Positions 11,305 through 47,446 of a stretch of DNA of 64,000 nucleotides are shown here, one piece after another. The stretch's first letter is position 1. The number at the start of each line of letters is the position of its first letter. Where the stretch lies: positions 1 through 64,000 of the forward strand of contig NZ_VDGH01000002.1 in the NCBI RefSeq assembly GCF_006861795.1. The letters are read 5' to 3'. The notes beneath the pieces were generated by a model. That model was not told the DNA's origin. It searched no databases and saw nothing but the letters and a program-made list of their open reading frames with translations. Source of the stretch: Psychrobacillus lasiicapitis (lineage in GTDB: Bacteria > Bacillota > Bacilli > Bacillales_A > Planococcaceae). A program made the position numbers and the translations under genes.

Positions 11305-12345
11305 ATGACTACTTCACGTCAAAAAAAGCGAAAAACAAAGACGAGAAGAAAAATTTTATATACAATACTTATTATTTCGATGGTTCTTTTCTCTGGAGTT
11401 ATTGTGTTTGCCACAAATCTATCGCTTCAGACAAAAAATGCAATAAATAAAATATACGAGCCCTTGGAAAAGGATACAAATCCAACAGAAGAGGCAGAAA
11501 ACAAGATCGAAAGTGCCAAAGCAGAAGACTCTGCATTTACCATATTATTAGCAGGTATCGAAAATGAAGAAAAAGCAAAATATGGTCGAGCAGATGTTTT
11601 AATCTTAGCAACAATAAATCCTAAGACAGAAAAAATCTCGTTGGTTAGTATTCCACGAGATTCCAGAGTGTATGTGCCTGACTTAGGATACCAGACTAAA
11701 ATTAATCACTCCTACGCTTTCGGAGGGATTAACTATACAATCAATACATTGGAAGAAATATTAGATATTCCAATCGATTATTATGTTTCAACAGACTTTC
11801 AAGGATTTGAAGATATCGTAGATACAGTAGGCGGTGTCGATGTAGATGTTCCATTTACTTTCAGCGCTCAGCTGACAGGTAGTTTAAAATGGAAGAAGTA
11901 TACAGAAGGTCCCATGTACTTAAACGGGAACGAAGCGCTTGCTTACGTCCGTATGCGTAAAAAAGATCCTCAAGGGGATGCCGGACGTAATATTCGACAA
12001 AAACAAGTTATACAAGAGATCATTAACAAAGCGACAAGCATAAGCAACATTGCCAACATTGATGATATGATTAAAGACGTCGGCAATAACGTCAAAACAA
12101 ATATTCCTTCTTCGGATTATTTTGGTTTGATCAAGACTTATCAAAACATCAAATCATCACCAATCGAGCAGCTTCAACTAGAAGGTGTGGACACCATGAT
12201 AAGAGGAACCTCTTATTTCCTGATAGACGAAGAGTCGCTGGAAGAAGTGAAGAAACAACTGCAGCTTAACCTAGATGATTTTGGTCAAAACGCACAAAGT
12301 GAAATTAAAACAAAAACTGTCTCAGATTTAACGATAGGACAGTAA
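11305..12345 (+). CDS. LytR-CpsA-Psr (LCP) family glycopolymer-peptidoglycan ligase
   Basis: 346 residues with a basic N-terminus, one membrane helix (about 17-38) and an external LCP domain. Conserved pieces are GRADVLILATI, SIPRDSRVYVP, KINHSYAFGG, VGGVDVDVP and YVRMRKKDPQGDAGRN, which contain the Arg and Asp residues that bind the pyrophosphate lipid substrate. LCP proteins move teichoic, teichuronic or capsular polymers from undecaprenyl-PP to peptidoglycan. Its place at the end of the polysaccharide cluster fits this job. A terminator follows at 12350. A TATAAT at 11260 upstream may be a -10 box, but its -35 is weak. Confidence 0.9.
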   Translation: MTTSRQKKRKTKTRRKILYTILIISMVLFSGVIVFATNLSLQTKNAINKIYEPLEKDTNPTEEAENKIESAKAEDSAFTILLAGIENEEKAKYGRADVLILATINPKTEKISLVSIPRDSRVYVPDLGYQTKINHSYAFGGINYTINTLEEILDIPIDYYVSTDFQGFEDIVDTVGGVDVDVPFTFSAQLTGSLKWKKYTEGPMYLNGNEALAYVRMRKKDPQGDAGRNIRQKQVIQEIINKATSISNIANIDDMIKDVGNNVKTNIPSSDYFGLIKTYQNIKSSPIEQLQLEGVDTMIRGTSYFLIDEESLEEVKKQLQLNLDDFGQNAQSEIKTKTVSDLTIGQ

Positions 12346-12349
12346 AACG

Positions 12350-12376
12350 AACAGCCTGTAATGGGCTGTTTTTTTT
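12350..12376 (+). terminator. Intrinsic terminator after the LCP gene
   Basis: The hairpin ACAGCC / GGGCTGT with a TGTAAT loop is followed by eight T residues. It closes the polysaccharide operon just before the first TTGCGATT array. Confidence 0.9.
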
Positions 12377-12410
12377 GTGGGCAAATATAGTAGTCGATAG
12401 AGTAAAGGTT

Positions 12411-12800
12411 CTTGCGATTTGGGACCCCTATCTTGCGATTCTCAGAGTGCATTTTGCGATTTGAAACCCTTATCTTGCGATTCTAGGTGGAACTTGCGGT
12501 TAGTAGTCCCTATCTTGTTATTCTCGGAGAGGAACTTGCGATTTGGGACCCCTATCTTGCGATTCTTAGAGTGCATCTTGCGATTTGAAACCCTTATCTT
12601 GCGATTCTAGGTTGAACTTGCGGTTACAAGTCCCTATCTTGTGATTCTCAGAGAGGAACTTGCGATTTGGGATCCCTATCTTGTGATTCTCAGAGTGCAT
12701 CTTGCGATTCTAGGTGGAACTTGCGGTTACAAGTTCCTATCTTGTTATTCCCAGAGAGGAACTTGTGATTGGGAATCCCTATCTTGCGATTTGCGGAACC
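12411..12800. repeat. TTGCGATT array 1 (21-bp lattice, higher-order 124-bp repeat)
   Basis: The TTGCGATT core (variants TTGCGGTT, TTGTTATT, TTGTGATT) begins at 12412, 12433, 12454, 12475, 12494, 12515 and 12536 and continues in the same way to about 12790. Steps are 21 bp, with one 19-bp step per block. The 13-bp spacers differ, but the whole six-core block repeats with a 124-bp period (starts 12412, 12536, 12660). The third block is 103 bp, exactly one 21-bp unit short. Short open frames across it are by-products of the repeat. The rest of the gap to 13082 is AT-rich upstream DNA of the next gene. Confidence 0.9.
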
Positions 12801-13023
12801 TCTTCTCGAGATTCACTCATACTTTATTGTCTAAAGGGTATGAGCTGGAAAATTTTGGCCCTGAGTCAACCTAAATTGTGTTAATTTTTACAAGTACTTT
12901 TGGAAATATATTTCAGCGATTTAGAATCTTGTTACGCTAGAAATCCAGTCAGCAGACATTATGACAGAATTCTATTAAATATATTACATTTCTATGACAT
13001 TGGATTTAATTACATTAGTTGGA

Positions 13024-13052
13024 TTGTTTTATGGGGATTGGTGCATTAAAAT
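13024..13052 (+). promoter_or_regulatory. Candidate sigma-A promoter for the wall-amidase operon
   Basis: TTGTTT (13024-13029), a 17-base spacer and TAAAAT (13047-13052) lie about 30 bases before the start codon. The -35 matches consensus at only three positions, so this is a tentative call. No sigma-D -10 (GCCGATAT-like) was seen here, although lytABC of B. subtilis uses one. Confidence 0.35.
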
Positions 13053-13082
13053 GGAGAAAACACAGGTTTCAAGGAGGAACAA

Positions 13083-15686
13083 ATGAAAAAAGTAATCGCA
13101 TCATCTGTCTTAGCAACTTCTGTTCTTTTGCCACTTAATCTTCTTGCGAGTGAATCACCAACTGCATATGCCGCTTCGAATTCATCTCTAGTATTAGACG
13201 AAATTCAACAAATAGCAGGTACAACACAAAAAATAGGGAAATATGCTGCGAATATGCGCAGTGGTGCAACAACTTCCTATAGCAAAGTTGTTACAATCCC
13301 TGCAGGCACTTCTTTGGAAATACTAGATGCATTTACAAATGCGGAAAAAGAAGTGTGGTTTAATGTAGAATATAACGGTAAAAAAGGCTGGGTAACATCG
13401 GAATTATTCGAGATAAATGTTACAGCTGGTGAAAGTGGCGTAGTTATTAATGAGCCAGTTAAACCAATCGCTCAAACTGCTGTAAAAGCAGCATCCACAT
13501 CTAATGGTATTTCTTATGTGGGAACTACACAAAGAATAGGGAAAAATGCGTCGAATATGAGAAGTGGTGCAACAACTTCTTATAAAGTAGTTGCTACAAT
13601 TCCAGCTGGCACTTCATTGAAAGTACTAAGTGCATTTACAAATGCACAAAACGAAGTATGGTTTAACGTTGAATATAACGGTAAAAAAGGTTGGGTAACA
13701 TCGGATTTATTTGCATTAAACGCTACAGCTGGCGAAACAGCAACTTCTATGAAAGTTGTACAACAAACAACTGTTCATAAAGGGGCAACTAAAAGTTACG
13801 CTGTCGTTTCCACAGTAAAACCTGGGACAACTCTTGTAATCCATCAAGAGTTTACAAATGCATCTAAAGAAAAATGGTTGCAGGTTACTTATGCAACTGG
13901 CAAAAAGGGCTGGGTACTTGCTTCTGCATTCGAAGAGTCATCGATAGCAAGCAAAGTAGTGAGTAAAACATCTACTGTTCACTCTGGTGCAACGAAAAGC
14001 TATAAAACGGTAGCGACAATTCAAGTTGGAACGAAACTATCTATCCATCAAGAGTTTACAAACGCTTCCAAAGAAAAATGGTATCAAGTGACCTATGCAG
14101 TAGGGAAAAAAGGTTGGATACCTGCAGATGCATTTGAAACTGTTTCTACTGTACCCGAAAATCCAACACCTGAAACACCTTCTACTGATGCAAATATTGT
14201 AGAAGAGAAAAATAGTTTAAAAGTTTCTGTACCTGTAGCAAATATGCGTTCAGGCCCAGCAATTACATTCGATGTGGTGACACAAGCAAGACAAAACGAC
14301 GTATTTGATTCAAGTCAATATGCAACGGACGCTAAATCGGAAAAATGGTATAAAGTGAACACGACAAGTGGGGAAGCTTGGTTACATCAATCCGTTGTGT
14401 CCATAGGAGATTCTGCTGGAGAAGCACCGATCGTTACACCTGGTGCAGGTGAAAAAGGAACGATTAAACGAGCGAATGCTTTATTATACGCGAACAGCAA
14501 TTATAATTCGGCAGTTCTACAGGGTCTTGCTAAAAATACAAGCTTTACCGTATTAAACAAATTGAAGGCTTCAGACGGAACTACTTGGATCCAAATTAAT
14601 GCTGGTGGAAAAGAAGGTTGGATTCCAGACTTCGAAGTAAATGAAAATATCCCAACTAAATATGGAACAAAAACAGCTACTGTCTACAACGGAGCAAGTG
14701 CTACTGCGAAAAAAGTAGATACGATTTATTTAAGTACACCAGTTAGGGTACTTCGTACATTGAATGGATGGGTAAATATTGAAACACAAAGTGAAAAACG
14801 TGGTTGGATTCAAGCTTCTATGCTTTCCGATATTTCACCGATCCAATTATCAAATGGTCGAACAGAAGTAAGAAATGGACAAAACTATATGGTATGGTCC
14901 AAGCCTTCTAAATTCGATATTACTTATTCAACGCCTTCTGCAAATGTTTTACGCATATTTGGTAATCTATCAGATATTAACGAGATTAAATCCTCTGTTA
15001 CTGGCGTGAAAAGTATGAAAGTAGAGAAAGTATCTGGTGGAACTTCGGTTTTATTGATCACCTTTGACCCTAATTACACTTATACAATTCGAGATTATGA
15101 TAAAGAATTGACGATTAAAGTTGTAGAAAAAGGATTAGCAGGTAAGAAAATCATCTTGGATGCTGGACACGGTGCAAAAGATCCTGGAGCAGTCGGACCA
15201 AATGGAAAAAGAGAAAAAGACGTTGTGCTTGCAACTGCTAAAGCATTACAAGCAGAGCTAGAAGCTGCTGGAGCAGAAGTAGTCTTAACAAGAAGTACAG
15301 ATGTCTTCTTAGAGTTAAAACAACGCACAGATATTGCAAATAAATCGGATTATGATGCATTCATTAGTCTTCATGCTGATGCATTTAATGCATCTTCAAA
15401 AGGCACGACGACGTATTACAATGCGACGGTTAACTTTAACGGTCCGCGTAGCTTGACGCTAGCAAAAAGCATTCAATCGGATTTAGTAAAAGCAATAGGT
15501 ACGTATAATCGTGGAGTAAAAGAACAAGTATTTTATGTAAATCGTATGAACGAACTTCCTTCTGTTCTTGTAGAACTTGCATTTATATCGAACCCAACAG
15601 AAGAAGCACAACTAGCTTCAGCTGCATTCCAGAAAAAAGCAGCAGCAGGAATTCGAAAAGGATTAGAAAACTATTTCAAACAATAA
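13083..15686 (+). CDS. Secreted N-acetylmuramoyl-L-alanine amidase with multiple SH3 domains
   Basis: 867 residues. A signal peptide (residues 1 to ~30, ending near TAYAAS) is followed by about seven bacterial SH3 repeats recognised by NMRSGATTSY-like and KGWV-like motifs. Several repeats are very similar to one another, which points to internal duplication. A further ~100-residue AMIN-like beta region precedes the C-terminal Amidase_3 domain (from ~residue 688). That domain has DAGHG, the zinc-ligand Glu in REKD, SLHAD and VELAFISN, so zinc ligands and the catalytic Glu are present. It cleaves the MurNAc-L-Ala bond in peptidoglycan. AAGGAGGAAC precedes the ATG. It is followed by two more exported wall proteins, and the trio resembles lytABC in function, with SH3 repeats in place of LytC's CWB2 repeats. 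Confidence 0.9.
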   Translation: MKKVIASSVLATSVLLPLNLLASESPTAYAASNSSLVLDEIQQIAGTTQKIGKYAANMRSGATTSYSKVVTIPAGTSLEILDAFTNAEKEVWFNVEYNGKKGWVTSELFEINVTAGESGVVINEPVKPIAQTAVKAASTSNGISYVGTTQRIGKNASNMRSGATTSYKVVATIPAGTSLKVLSAFTNAQNEVWFNVEYNGKKGWVTSDLFALNATAGETATSMKVVQQTTVHKGATKSYAVVSTVKPGTTLVIHQEFTNASKEKWLQVTYATGKKGWVLASAFEESSIASKVVSKTSTVHSGATKSYKTVATIQVGTKLSIHQEFTNASKEKWYQVTYAVGKKGWIPADAFETVSTVPENPTPETPSTDANIVEEKNSLKVSVPVANMRSGPAITFDVVTQARQNDVFDSSQYATDAKSEKWYKVNTTSGEAWLHQSVVSIGDSAGEAPIVTPGAGEKGTIKRANALLYANSNYNSAVLQGLAKNTSFTVLNKLKASDGTTWIQINAGGKEGWIPDFEVNENIPTKYGTKTATVYNGASATAKKVDTIYLSTPVRVLRTLNGWVNIETQSEKRGWIQASMLSDISPIQLSNGRTEVRNGQNYMVWSKPSKFDITYSTPSANVLRIFGNLSDINEIKSSVTGVKSMKVEKVSGGTSVLLITFDPNYTYTIRDYDKELTIKVVEKGLAGKKIILDAGHGAKDPGAVGPNGKREKDVVLATAKALQAELEAAGAEVVLTRSTDVFLELKQRTDIANKSDYDAFISLHADAFNASSKGTTTYYNATVNFNGPRSLTLAKSIQSDLVKAIGTYNRGVKEQVFYVNRMNELPSVLVELAFISNPTEEAQLASAAFQKKAAAGIRKGLENYFKQ

Positions 15687-21546: not shown

Positions 21547-21576
21547 CTATTGGGTTTTAATTAGGAGGAAATGTAC

Positions 21577-22251
21577 ATGACAAAAATTATAATTATAGAT
21601 GATCACCAACTATTCCGTGAAGGAGTAAAACGCATTCTAGATTTCGAAGACACATTCGAAGTAGTAGCAGAAGGTGACGACGGCAATGACGTGCTTCGCC
21701 TTTACGAACAATACATGCCGGATGTAGTACTTATGGATATTAATATGCCGACCAAAAATGGTGTAGAAGCAACAGCAGAGCTATTAGAAAAATTTCCTGA
21801 TGCAAAAGTAATCATCCTATCCATTCACGATGATGAAACATACGTATCTCATGCCCTAAAAACTGGTGCACTCGGATACATGCTAAAAGAAATGGATGCA
21901 AACGCAATCGTCTCTGCTATTAAAGTAGTAGCAAAAGGTGGTTCATACCTACATCCAAAAGTAACACGCAACCTAGTATCAGAATTCCGTCGCCTAAGCG
22001 AACGTGAAAACAAAGGAAACTTCCATCAAACAGAAATTCGCCGCCCATTCCACTTACTAACAAAGCGCGAATGTGAAGTACTCCAACTACTAACAGACGG
22101 TCAAAGTAACCGCACCATCGGAGAAACACTTTTCATCTCCGAAAAAACAGTAAAAAACCACGTTTCAAGCATTCTGCAAAAAATGAATGTTAATGACCGT
22201 ACTCAAGCCGTAGTAACCGGCATCAAAAATGGCTGGGTGGAAGTACGATAA
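21577..22251 (+). CDS. degU: Response regulator DegU
   Basis: 224 residues, near-identical in layout to B. subtilis DegU. The receiver domain (1-120) has [16 protein letters not shown], the phospho-Asp in VVLMDINMP and a Lys in LLKEMDA-like context. The C-terminal LuxR/NarL helix-turn-helix has [12 protein letters not shown] and [16 protein letters not shown]. The start is placed at ATG 21577 because AGGAGG sits 8 bases upstream; an ATG six bases earlier is too close. It forms a two-gene operon with degS and ends at the terminator at 22262. Confidence 0.95.
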
Positions 22252-22294: not shown

Positions 22295-22315
22295 TTTGGG
22301 TGGAGAAGATGGATC

Positions 22316-22528
22316 TTGCGATTAATAGCCCCTATTTTGCGATTCGGTCCTAGTATCTTGCGATTCGAAGGTGCTACCTTGTGATTCACAAAAAATGTCA
22401 GGGGATCTTGCGATTTGTCGAGCCAATCTTGCGATAAGCAGTCCCTATTTTGCGATTCTGTCCTAGTATCTTGCGATTCGAAGGTGTTACTTTGCGATTC
22501 ATAAAAATTGACAGAGAAACTTGCAATA
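22316..22528. repeat. TTGCGATT array 2 (21-bp lattice with 29-bp jumps)
   Basis: Cores begin at 22316, 22337, 22358, 22379, 22408, 22429, 22450, 22471, 22492 and, degenerate, 22521. The steps are 21,21,21,29,21,21,21,21,29. A 113-bp higher-order repeat is visible (TTGCGATTAATAGCCCCTAT at 22316 against TTGCGATAAGCAGTCCCTAT at 22429). It fills the space between the convergent ends of degU and the NERD gene. Confidence 0.88.
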
Positions 22529-22580: not shown

Positions 22581-22604
22581 AAAAAAGATCGATTTTTATC
22601 GATC
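22581..22604 (-). terminator. Terminator overlapping the end of the NERD gene
   Basis: On the minus strand GATCGAT-AAAA-ATCGATC is followed by TTTTTT. The last codons and the TAA stop of the gene form part of the stem and loop. Confidence 0.85.
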
Positions 22605-23531
22605 CTTTTTCTGCGTATAAAATGTTTTTGGCCCGGCCCTATGAATCTGTAAATCCATACTATTCAACATGCGGGAAGCTGCATAAACAGAATCTACCTT
22701 GCAAAAAACACGGAAATCTCTATTTCTCATTTCTTTACTCACCAACCAAAAGTACTCTTCAACAGCGTGTTTATGGGCATCTCGAGACTTTTGCTTGCAA
22801 CTAGTGCATGTCCATACTTTACCTGTTCGCTTCATGCCTAGCATGCCGCATTTCGGACATTCTACTCCTCGGATCAATTCATTTGGGGAAATTTGATAGC
22901 TTTCACAAAGAGGGCGATGGATAAAAGTTGATTGCTTTTTCCATAATGTTTGCTCAATAGAGTCTATCTGATTATTGGTCAAGCTAATAGAAGATGGAGA
23001 TTCATACATGTGTAGGATTTTCTCAATAATACTTTCTAATTTGAAAATGGGATAATGGGCTGGTTTTTGGCGGATCCTGCAGGACTTGGCGGTTAATACC
23101 ACGGCACCTGTTACTTTCATTTCGGGGAAATTAGATAATTGGAAGAACTCTTTCATAAATCTAATGTGTTTTAAGAGTTGATAATATGGATTACGATAAA
23201 CTATTTCCTGACCGGCTCTATCTACTTTATAAAATTCTTCAGAGTTCTCATTAAAATACAAGTCATCGCTAATATTTTTAGACTCTAACACGATGCAACA
23301 GCGGTCAGTAACTACTAAACAATCAATCTGAACTTTCCACTCACCAGATTGTAAACTCAAATCTGAGAAGATTCGATATGGTCCAGGCAAGCGCAATTCA
23401 TTTAATTTTTGTAATAGTCGTTTTTCTCCTCTCATACCAGATTCTATTTGGTGGATATCTTTCCGAATATCCTCCTCTTTTAAATGTGGGGTACGCAATC
23501 TTTTCATTAAAGCATATTGTTTAATTACCAA
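22596..23531 (-). CDS. NERD-domain protein with C-terminal zinc ribbon
   Basis: 311 residues. The N-terminal half (about 30-150) is a nuclease-related domain: a conserved Asp in QIDCLVVTDR and the Glu-x-Lys in VLESKNI match the catalytic pattern of the restriction-endonuclease-like fold. Near the C-terminus CPKCGMLG...CTSCKQ forms a four-Cys zinc ribbon, followed by a short alpha-beta tail. The start is TTG with GGAGGTGA 9 bases upstream. NERD proteins in Bacillales are common single genes without a proven substrate; DNA processing is inferred. It stands alone on the minus strand. Confidence 0.82.
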   Translation of the reverse strand: MVIKQYALMKRLRTPHLKEEDIRKDIHQIESGMRGEKRLLQKLNELRLPGPYRIFSDLSLQSGEWKVQIDCLVVTDRCCIVLESKNISDDLYFNENSEEFYKVDRAGQEIVYRNPYYQLLKHIRFMKEFFQLSNFPEMKVTGAVVLTAKSCRIRQKPAHYPIFKLESIIEKILHMYESPSSISLTNNQIDSIEQTLWKKQSTFIHRPLCESYQISPNELIRGVECPKCGMLGMKRTGKVWTCTSCKQKSRDAHKHAVEEYFWLVSKEMRNRDFRVFCKVDSVYAASRMLNSMDLQIHRAGPKTFYTQKKDR

Positions 23532-47297: not shown

Positions 47298-47315
47298 ATA
47301 TGGAAGAAGAGTATC

Positions 47316-47446
47316 TTGCGATTCGGAGGGGGTATCTTGCTATTCTGGGTTGCTACCTTGCGATTTGGGGCGAGTATTTTGTGATTTTAAGCTATGATCT
47401 TGCGATTCAGTCAGTCTATCTTGCGGTTCTTGAGAATATTGCGAGA
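47316..47446. repeat. TTGCGATT array 3 (21-bp lattice)
   Basis: Cores begin at 47316, 47337, 47358, 47379, 47400, 47421 and (degenerate) 47439: five exact 21-bp steps, then 18. The spacers are unrelated to each other, so the period is kept by the core alone. It lies between the terminator of chemoreceptor 2 and the convergent protease gene. Confidence 0.88.

Follow-up and report, generated by a model that had tools for sequence, protein, structure and literature searches.

Eukaryotic minisatellites turn over rapidly, and different loci have a short core in common while the remainder of the unit varies. In CRISPR arrays, unique spacers separate identical repeats of about 23-47 bp, and cas genes accompany them; BIMEs are intergenic elements, found close to gene 3′ ends and where genes converge. 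REPs are palindromes, as stated in an excerpt of PMC3733652. The ParR protein of pSK41 binds 20-bp repeats, and the DNA wraps round ParR in a solenoid (excerpt of PMC9426499). Most of the TAACTGA heptamer repeats in the main genome of Beggiatoaceae stand just upstream of start codons (excerpt of PMC4679880). It is beside these systems that we place a family of intergenic arrays represented in the window, by which we mean the whole stretch of 64,000 nucleotides of Psychrobacillus lasiicapitis DNA that was analysed.

Array 1 (12411..12791, + strand) holds 19 cores that resemble TTGCGATT with 0-2 mismatches, all on a single strand between 12412 and 12784. It is built of two full 124-bp blocks with steps of 21/21/21/19/21/21, a third block one unit shorter and a two-unit tail. 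The preliminary description of the region 12411-12800 had reported a regular array of cores with a six-core block every 124 bp and a last block short by one 21-bp unit. Its account of the blocks agrees with Tandem Repeats Finder, which returns a period of 124 bp over 12411-12709 (94% matches) and one of 103 bp over 12596-12791, where the last block lacks one 21-bp unit. The regularity of the cores was likewise borne out, by the 19 cores and by the source genome, where TTGCGATT-N11..15-TTGCGATT has 29 matches and the reversed control pattern has none, so the cores do not simply occur singly and indifferent to a 21-bp spacing; the cores do, however, vary in sequence, and TTGCGGTT, TTGTTATT and TTGTGATT are all found in array 1. 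The further claim that every step is 21 bp and that all cores face one side of the helix had to be given up. The step from 12475 to 12494 is 19 bp, and because all three blocks contain such a 19-bp step, the cores leave one face across blocks at 10.5 bp/turn, where coherence is 0.44, compared with 0.94 at 10.32 bp/turn (locus L269).

The array begins about 40 bp behind the intrinsic terminator (12349..12371, + strand) of a LytR-CpsA-Psr family gene (11305..12345, + strand; PF03816, E 4e-48) whose 3′ end faces it, and an SH3 / N-acetylmuramoyl-L-alanine amidase gene lies downstream (13083..15686, + strand; PF08239, PF01520). An array is found within 800 bp of the LytR-CpsA-Psr gene in 3 of 13 readable genomes, a count that leaves out G008, whose contig ends too early, and five genomes in which nothing matched the gene at the cut-off; array 1 was gained recently, in contrast to the array behind degU described below. 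Behind the same gene in G014 (L280), a run of AAAAGAT heptamers and copies of a longer dispersed repeat take the place of the array, and a second LytR-CpsA-Psr homologue (L288, G008:C31:2188-3162) carries one internal stop codon. Two short open frames (12419-12610 and 12641-12874, the second overrunning the end of the array) cross array 1, and annotation may call proteins there. A reading of this region as promoters was rejected, the two sigma-70-like sites in 12300-13100 matching the expected 2.0.

Array 2 (22315..22512, + strand) has nine cores at steps of 21/21/21/29/21/21/21/21, giving a block of 113 bp, or 4 x 21 + 29. It lies behind a response regulator gene (21571..22251, + strand) with Response_reg and GerE domains, which from its arrangement we take to be degU; on its far side is a NERD-domain gene (22596..23531, - strand; PF08378) convergent with degU. 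Array 3 (47315..47428, + strand) comprises six cores at 21-bp steps with 0-1 mismatch to TTGCGATT, behind the terminator of what appears to be a methyl-accepting chemotaxis protein gene (gene name and terminator assigned by eye). All three arrays begin just past intrinsic terminators, those of arrays 2 and 3 identified by eye, and the genes beside arrays 1 and 2 are unrelated to one another.

The preliminary description had proposed a search of related genomes for further examples, and they are there. In a sample of 261 genomes, all from one GTDB family, four TTGCG words at 21-bp steps were matched in 61 genomes and 10 of 19 genera (the reversed control in 17 genomes, counted by eye): all 19 Psychrobacillus genomes and 42 of the 242 others. 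Loci were taken from 23 of those 42. An array could be scored in 22 of them: spacers vary in 19 (adjacent identity 0.28-0.78), and the units are near-identical in 3 (G130, G134, G169). Among the matches listed by named genome, variable-spacer arrays are clear in Psychrobacillus species and Ureibacillus acetophenoni, and many of the inspected loci from neither genus are (TTTGCGA)n runs or near-identical repeats. Elsewhere in the same class the pattern was matched in 5 of 359 genomes (by eye), with 5 control matches, and among the matches listed those 5 are near-identical units or heptamers. In other phyla, L121, L123, L138 and L154 are among the few loci with differing spacers among the matches listed; of the 27 unrelated arrays scored from those matches, each with no fewer than four cores, 3 (L120, L123 and L159) have an adjacent-spacer identity below 0.75 (0.69-0.71). 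L123 (an uncultured Bacteroidetes) and L120 (Puniceicoccales), both outside the family, are 21-bp repeats of TTGCGATT whose spacers differ, at an identity of 0.69. Heptamer runs of the form (TTTGCGA)n occur at L075, L077, L093, L338 and other loci, in phyla that include Paceibacterota and Spirochaetes and in a Bacilli genome. A different dispersed repeat, near TTGCGACGAGCTTTGCGCAGGAGCAACACGATGTTGCG, is present outside the arrays in about 14 copies on C1-C7 of genome G000 among the matches listed (e.g., C1:229149-229186, C1:448515-448552 and C5:135179-135216); a genome count of TTGCG-N5..35-TTGCG (315 against 121 for the reversed pattern) was set aside because this repeat confounds it.

What the family conserves is not the TTGCGATT that the preliminary description took for a constant core. 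The invariant is TTGCG with A/T at positions -3 and +7 and weaker flanks, and ATT is one flavour of it. Across 129 family arrays, information extends from about -4 to +8 round TTGCG, itself a search requirement, and is at most 0.10 bit outside these limits. Orientation within the arrays is nearly uniform, 1386 cores lying on the same strand and 21 on the opposite one. The proposal that the spacers are free while the core is constrained was upheld when each block of 30 arrays with 78-134 bp blocks was compared with its own next copy. Mismatches amount to 3.2% in the core TTGCG, 1.1% (5/454) at position -3, 8.1% in the near flanks and 17.2% in the outer spacer (-8..-4 and +9..+12), with a core/rest ratio of 0.11-0.30 (bootstrap 95%). 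Since the comparison required one copy to have an intact core, neutral copies were simulated under the same conditioning, and they lead one to expect 12.6% in the core; an earlier, looser comparison that included arrays of other phyla gave 4.1% against 12.6%. The core is thus about four times more conserved than the neutral expectation among recent duplicates inside single arrays. Slippage in the ordinary sense also fails to describe the spacers, whose adjacent identity averages 0.52 in the 129 family arrays and 0.91 in the 27 unrelated 21-bp repeats. The assertion that the arrays are not simple slippage is therefore right as regards the diverged spacers, but whole blocks have clearly slipped or been exchanged unequally.

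The commonest step is 21 bp (1306 of 1651 steps in 164 arrays, other phyla included), a share that is inflated because arrays lacking two successive 21-bp steps were dropped, as they were from the analyses of context, flavour, period and substitution. Counted once per array, 101 of 137 odd steps are of 16-20 bp (69), 28-29 bp (18) or 38-40 bp (14), and a 22-bp step occurs in 8 arrays, in a tally that includes a few arrays of other phyla. The odd steps are most often 18, 19, 29 or 40 bp, come at about every fifth step in long arrays, and are present in 48 of the 49 family arrays with at least 10 cores, the exception (L242) being made of identical units. The commonest block has four 21-bp steps and one of 18 or 29; five 21-bp steps with one of 19, and three or four with one of 40, are also recurring plans. 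In some of the 38-40 bp steps, a core may have been lost between neighbouring steps of 21 and 18/19. The block period arises from tandem duplication of about five units, and block lengths are 82, 101-103, 112-113 or 124 bp, near 8, 10, 11 and 12 turns, in 29 of 30 arrays. Among the pure multiples of 21 bp, blocks of 84 and 105 bp are found in none of the 30 and a block of 126 bp (6 x 21) in one; in a looser set that admitted shorter shifts and other phyla, the best shift was 42, 63, 84 or 105 bp in 20 of 48 arrays.

We read the odd steps as phase corrections. The helical period fitted to 42 long family arrays is 10.23 ± 0.07 bp/turn (10.10-10.50), although these phase estimates are not independent, because blocks share descent, and by our own estimate the independent cases are nearer eight. 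Random shifts of up to 5 bp in the odd steps take the fitted period to 10.53 ± 0.34, and at 10.5 bp/turn the long arrays mostly lose their coherence. The coherence test, from which L088 and L110 of other phyla were dropped, is modest, with a combined p of 0.009 over 40 arrays, most of them not significant singly. Two other processes would leave similar marks: deletion-biased small indels would also pull the fitted period below 10.5, and block duplication alone would also give regularly spaced odd steps. For the latter reason the longest unbroken series of 21-bp steps (4.1, where shuffles of the 46 arrays give 7.5, again without L088 and L110) is not used as evidence. A-tracts are commoner in odd spacers of 17-19 bp (16/45) than in 21-bp ones (57/469; p 1e-4), which we take as a hint only.

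The array behind degU has been kept in place across the genus. All 18 readable Psychrobacillus genomes carry one behind the gene and on its strand; in the 19th (G017) the contig stops 159 bp past degU. Seventeen pass the strict criterion, and that of G018 has steps of 21 x 5, 40, 21 x 4 if TTGCA is allowed. The words differ from genome to genome (TTGCGATT, TTGCGTTA, GTTGCGCAAA, TTGCGAGTA or CTTGCGGAGA), so that location and orientation are conserved and the sequence has turned over.

A cooperative DNA-binding protein that touches the helix every two turns would suit the constrained core, the bounded site, the strict polarity, the helical register and the free spacers alike. We propose, with a probability of roughly 0.5, that a putative cooperative, polar, DNA-wrapping protein uses the arrays as its binding platforms on the chromosome. 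Sites on one face of wrapped DNA are expected to recur at less than 10.5 bp/turn; on this general ground, the register below 10.5 bp/turn points to such an arrangement here. From these features we infer recognition of the core by a protein, its polymerisation or wrapping, and a structural role for it. Its contacts would fall on a site of about 11-12 bp, [AT]NNTTGCGNN[AT], once in two helical turns, with the DNA kept in an unbroken wrap or filament, and the arrays might serve, for example, to anchor or insulate DNA behind genes. They would grow and shrink by the duplication of blocks of about five units, a process that might help to make flavours alike within a genome while selection keeps the core. 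Against this reading stand the patchy spread outside the genus and the way arrays come and go at single loci, such as that of the LytR-CpsA-Psr gene. The preliminary description had already suggested selection on protein-binding geometry; core constraint and helical phase speak for that suggestion, but the exact 21-bp lattice gives way to a period of about 10.2-10.3 bp/turn, and the protein is a putative one. More tentatively, and with rather more doubt than belief, we can imagine a new class of nucleoprotein site in the Planococcaceae. Its polymerising, wrapping protein would read only [AT]NNTTGCGNN[AT] every two turns, "leap" steps (18/19/29/40 bp, about every fifth) would keep a register of about 10.25 bp/turn, and sites of the degU type would be held for the age of the genus while nearly all other sequence turns over.

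The main rival of the binding model is a self-propagating minisatellite, in which TTGCG is a signal for duplication or conversion machinery, perhaps as a nick, break or strand-invasion site, and copies with an intact core multiply with no gain to the host. We consider it unlikely, if not by a wide measure, and much in the distribution of the arrays suits it. With matches in 42 of 242 family genomes outside the genus the arrays are patchy, and so not essential, and single genomes hold great numbers of four-core matches (219 in G196, 230 in G238, 179 in G205), although an array was read only in G196 (L215) and G238 also gave 19 control matches. Flavours are more similar within genomes than between them (0.420 against 0.357 permuted, 0/1000), blocks are duplicated, and the intergenic positions disturb little. 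In Ureibacillus acetophenoni (L080, L086, L126, L145, L148), where the plan is 4 x 21 + 18 and the flavour a different one, arrays reach 62 units. By itself, however, such an element does not predict block lengths near whole turns, the odd "leap" steps, or an array in one orientation behind degU in every readable genome.

A further alternative is that the arrays are capture sites for gyrase or a nucleoid protein, absorbing transcription-driven supercoils behind genes, as BIMEs of E. coli are said to do. Of 48 arrays (seven genomes) for which a simple ORF finder called the genes on both sides, a gene 3′ end adjoins 44; 19 lie between convergent genes, 4 between divergent ones, and the rest between co-directional genes, 14 in one orientation and 11 in the other. 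Median distances, read by eye, are 70-80 bp to gene 3′ ends and about 205-215 bp to gene starts. Blocks of 102-124 bp and a period near that of wrapped DNA also accord with capture sites. Against these points, the units are direct and on one strand, not palindromic, and gyrase is universal while in our sample only parts of one family have the arrays; we regard this explanation as distinctly improbable. The same 48 arrays have no orientation preference relative to neighbouring genes, nor is there a clear bias with replication, whose fork 9 of 25 arrays follow in the three genomes starting at dnaA (counted by hand, the terminus assumed opposite the origin). Arrays in these three genomes tend to lie mid-arm (pooled KS p 0.018, each alone 0.07-0.19), a placement to which we give no weight because orthologous loci are not independent.

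That the arrays are ordinary neutral tandem repeats, slipping and drifting, is very improbable: the number of units and blocks does differ between species, but core substitutions fall four times below the neutral expectation, and unrelated 21-bp repeats of other phyla are near-identical on average (0.91). Least credible is that the arrays encode a repeat protein or are transcribed into a regulatory or structured RNA. Although open frames cross some arrays, 21 and 18 are divisible by three and 3 of 28 folding z-scores are -2.4 or lower, the other 25 run from -1.9 to 2.6, giving no consistent folding signal (14 arrays, both strands), and arrays stand in both orientations to neighbouring genes. 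Coding was rejected on the 18 of 30 block lengths that are not multiples of three, and the Rfam covariance models had no match in the window at gathering thresholds.

If the arrays are indeed binding platforms, geometry and a five-base core, not the sequence at large, would be what evolution has kept in a bacterial repeat family, and the arrays would offer a direct handle on a DNA-organising protein. The leap steps predict a register of about 10.2-10.3 bp/turn, which a footprint could test. Even if the selfish element were the true explanation, there would be a tractable shared core in arrays of fast turnover whose place is kept across a genus.

In the open-access literature, to which our search was mostly confined rather than subscription papers, we found no description of such arrays. 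CRISPR arrays differ from them plainly: here the core is a degenerate 8 bp, spacers are mostly 13 bp, and spacers are duplicated with the blocks. A simple minisatellite or VNTR shares the tandem duplication of blocks (124, 113 and 102 bp), but its adjacent units are near-identical and these are not (0.52 against 0.91). Eukaryotic minisatellites resemble the arrays in their shared short core, variable remainder and rapid turnover, but in the arrays the spacing of the core follows the helix, with recurring odd steps. REPs and BIMEs resemble the arrays in being extragenic, near gene 3′ ends (44/48) and present at many loci per genome; those elements are palindromes, whereas the arrays are direct repeats in one orientation (1386 against 21) with no consistent hairpin signal. 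With parC/ParR of the pSK41 type they share directly repeated sites, but parC is one site beside parM/parR and the arrays are many, dispersed and chromosomal, with free spacers; a profile search of the four proteins beside arrays 1 and 2 of the window found no Par protein. The arrays are thus set apart from BIMEs and from Par centromeres (the latter for arrays 1 and 2) by the absence of the defining feature of each. They share with the TAACTGA arrays of Beggiatoaceae a short invariant word, direct repetition, intergenic position and a patchy spread across taxa (on the excerpted text of PMC4679880), but in the present family free sequence separates the cores, and the arrays lie nearer gene 3′ ends than starts. 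In behaviour, the nearest systems are the plasmid centromeres bound by ParR, the BIMEs, and short-word arrays such as TAACTGA.
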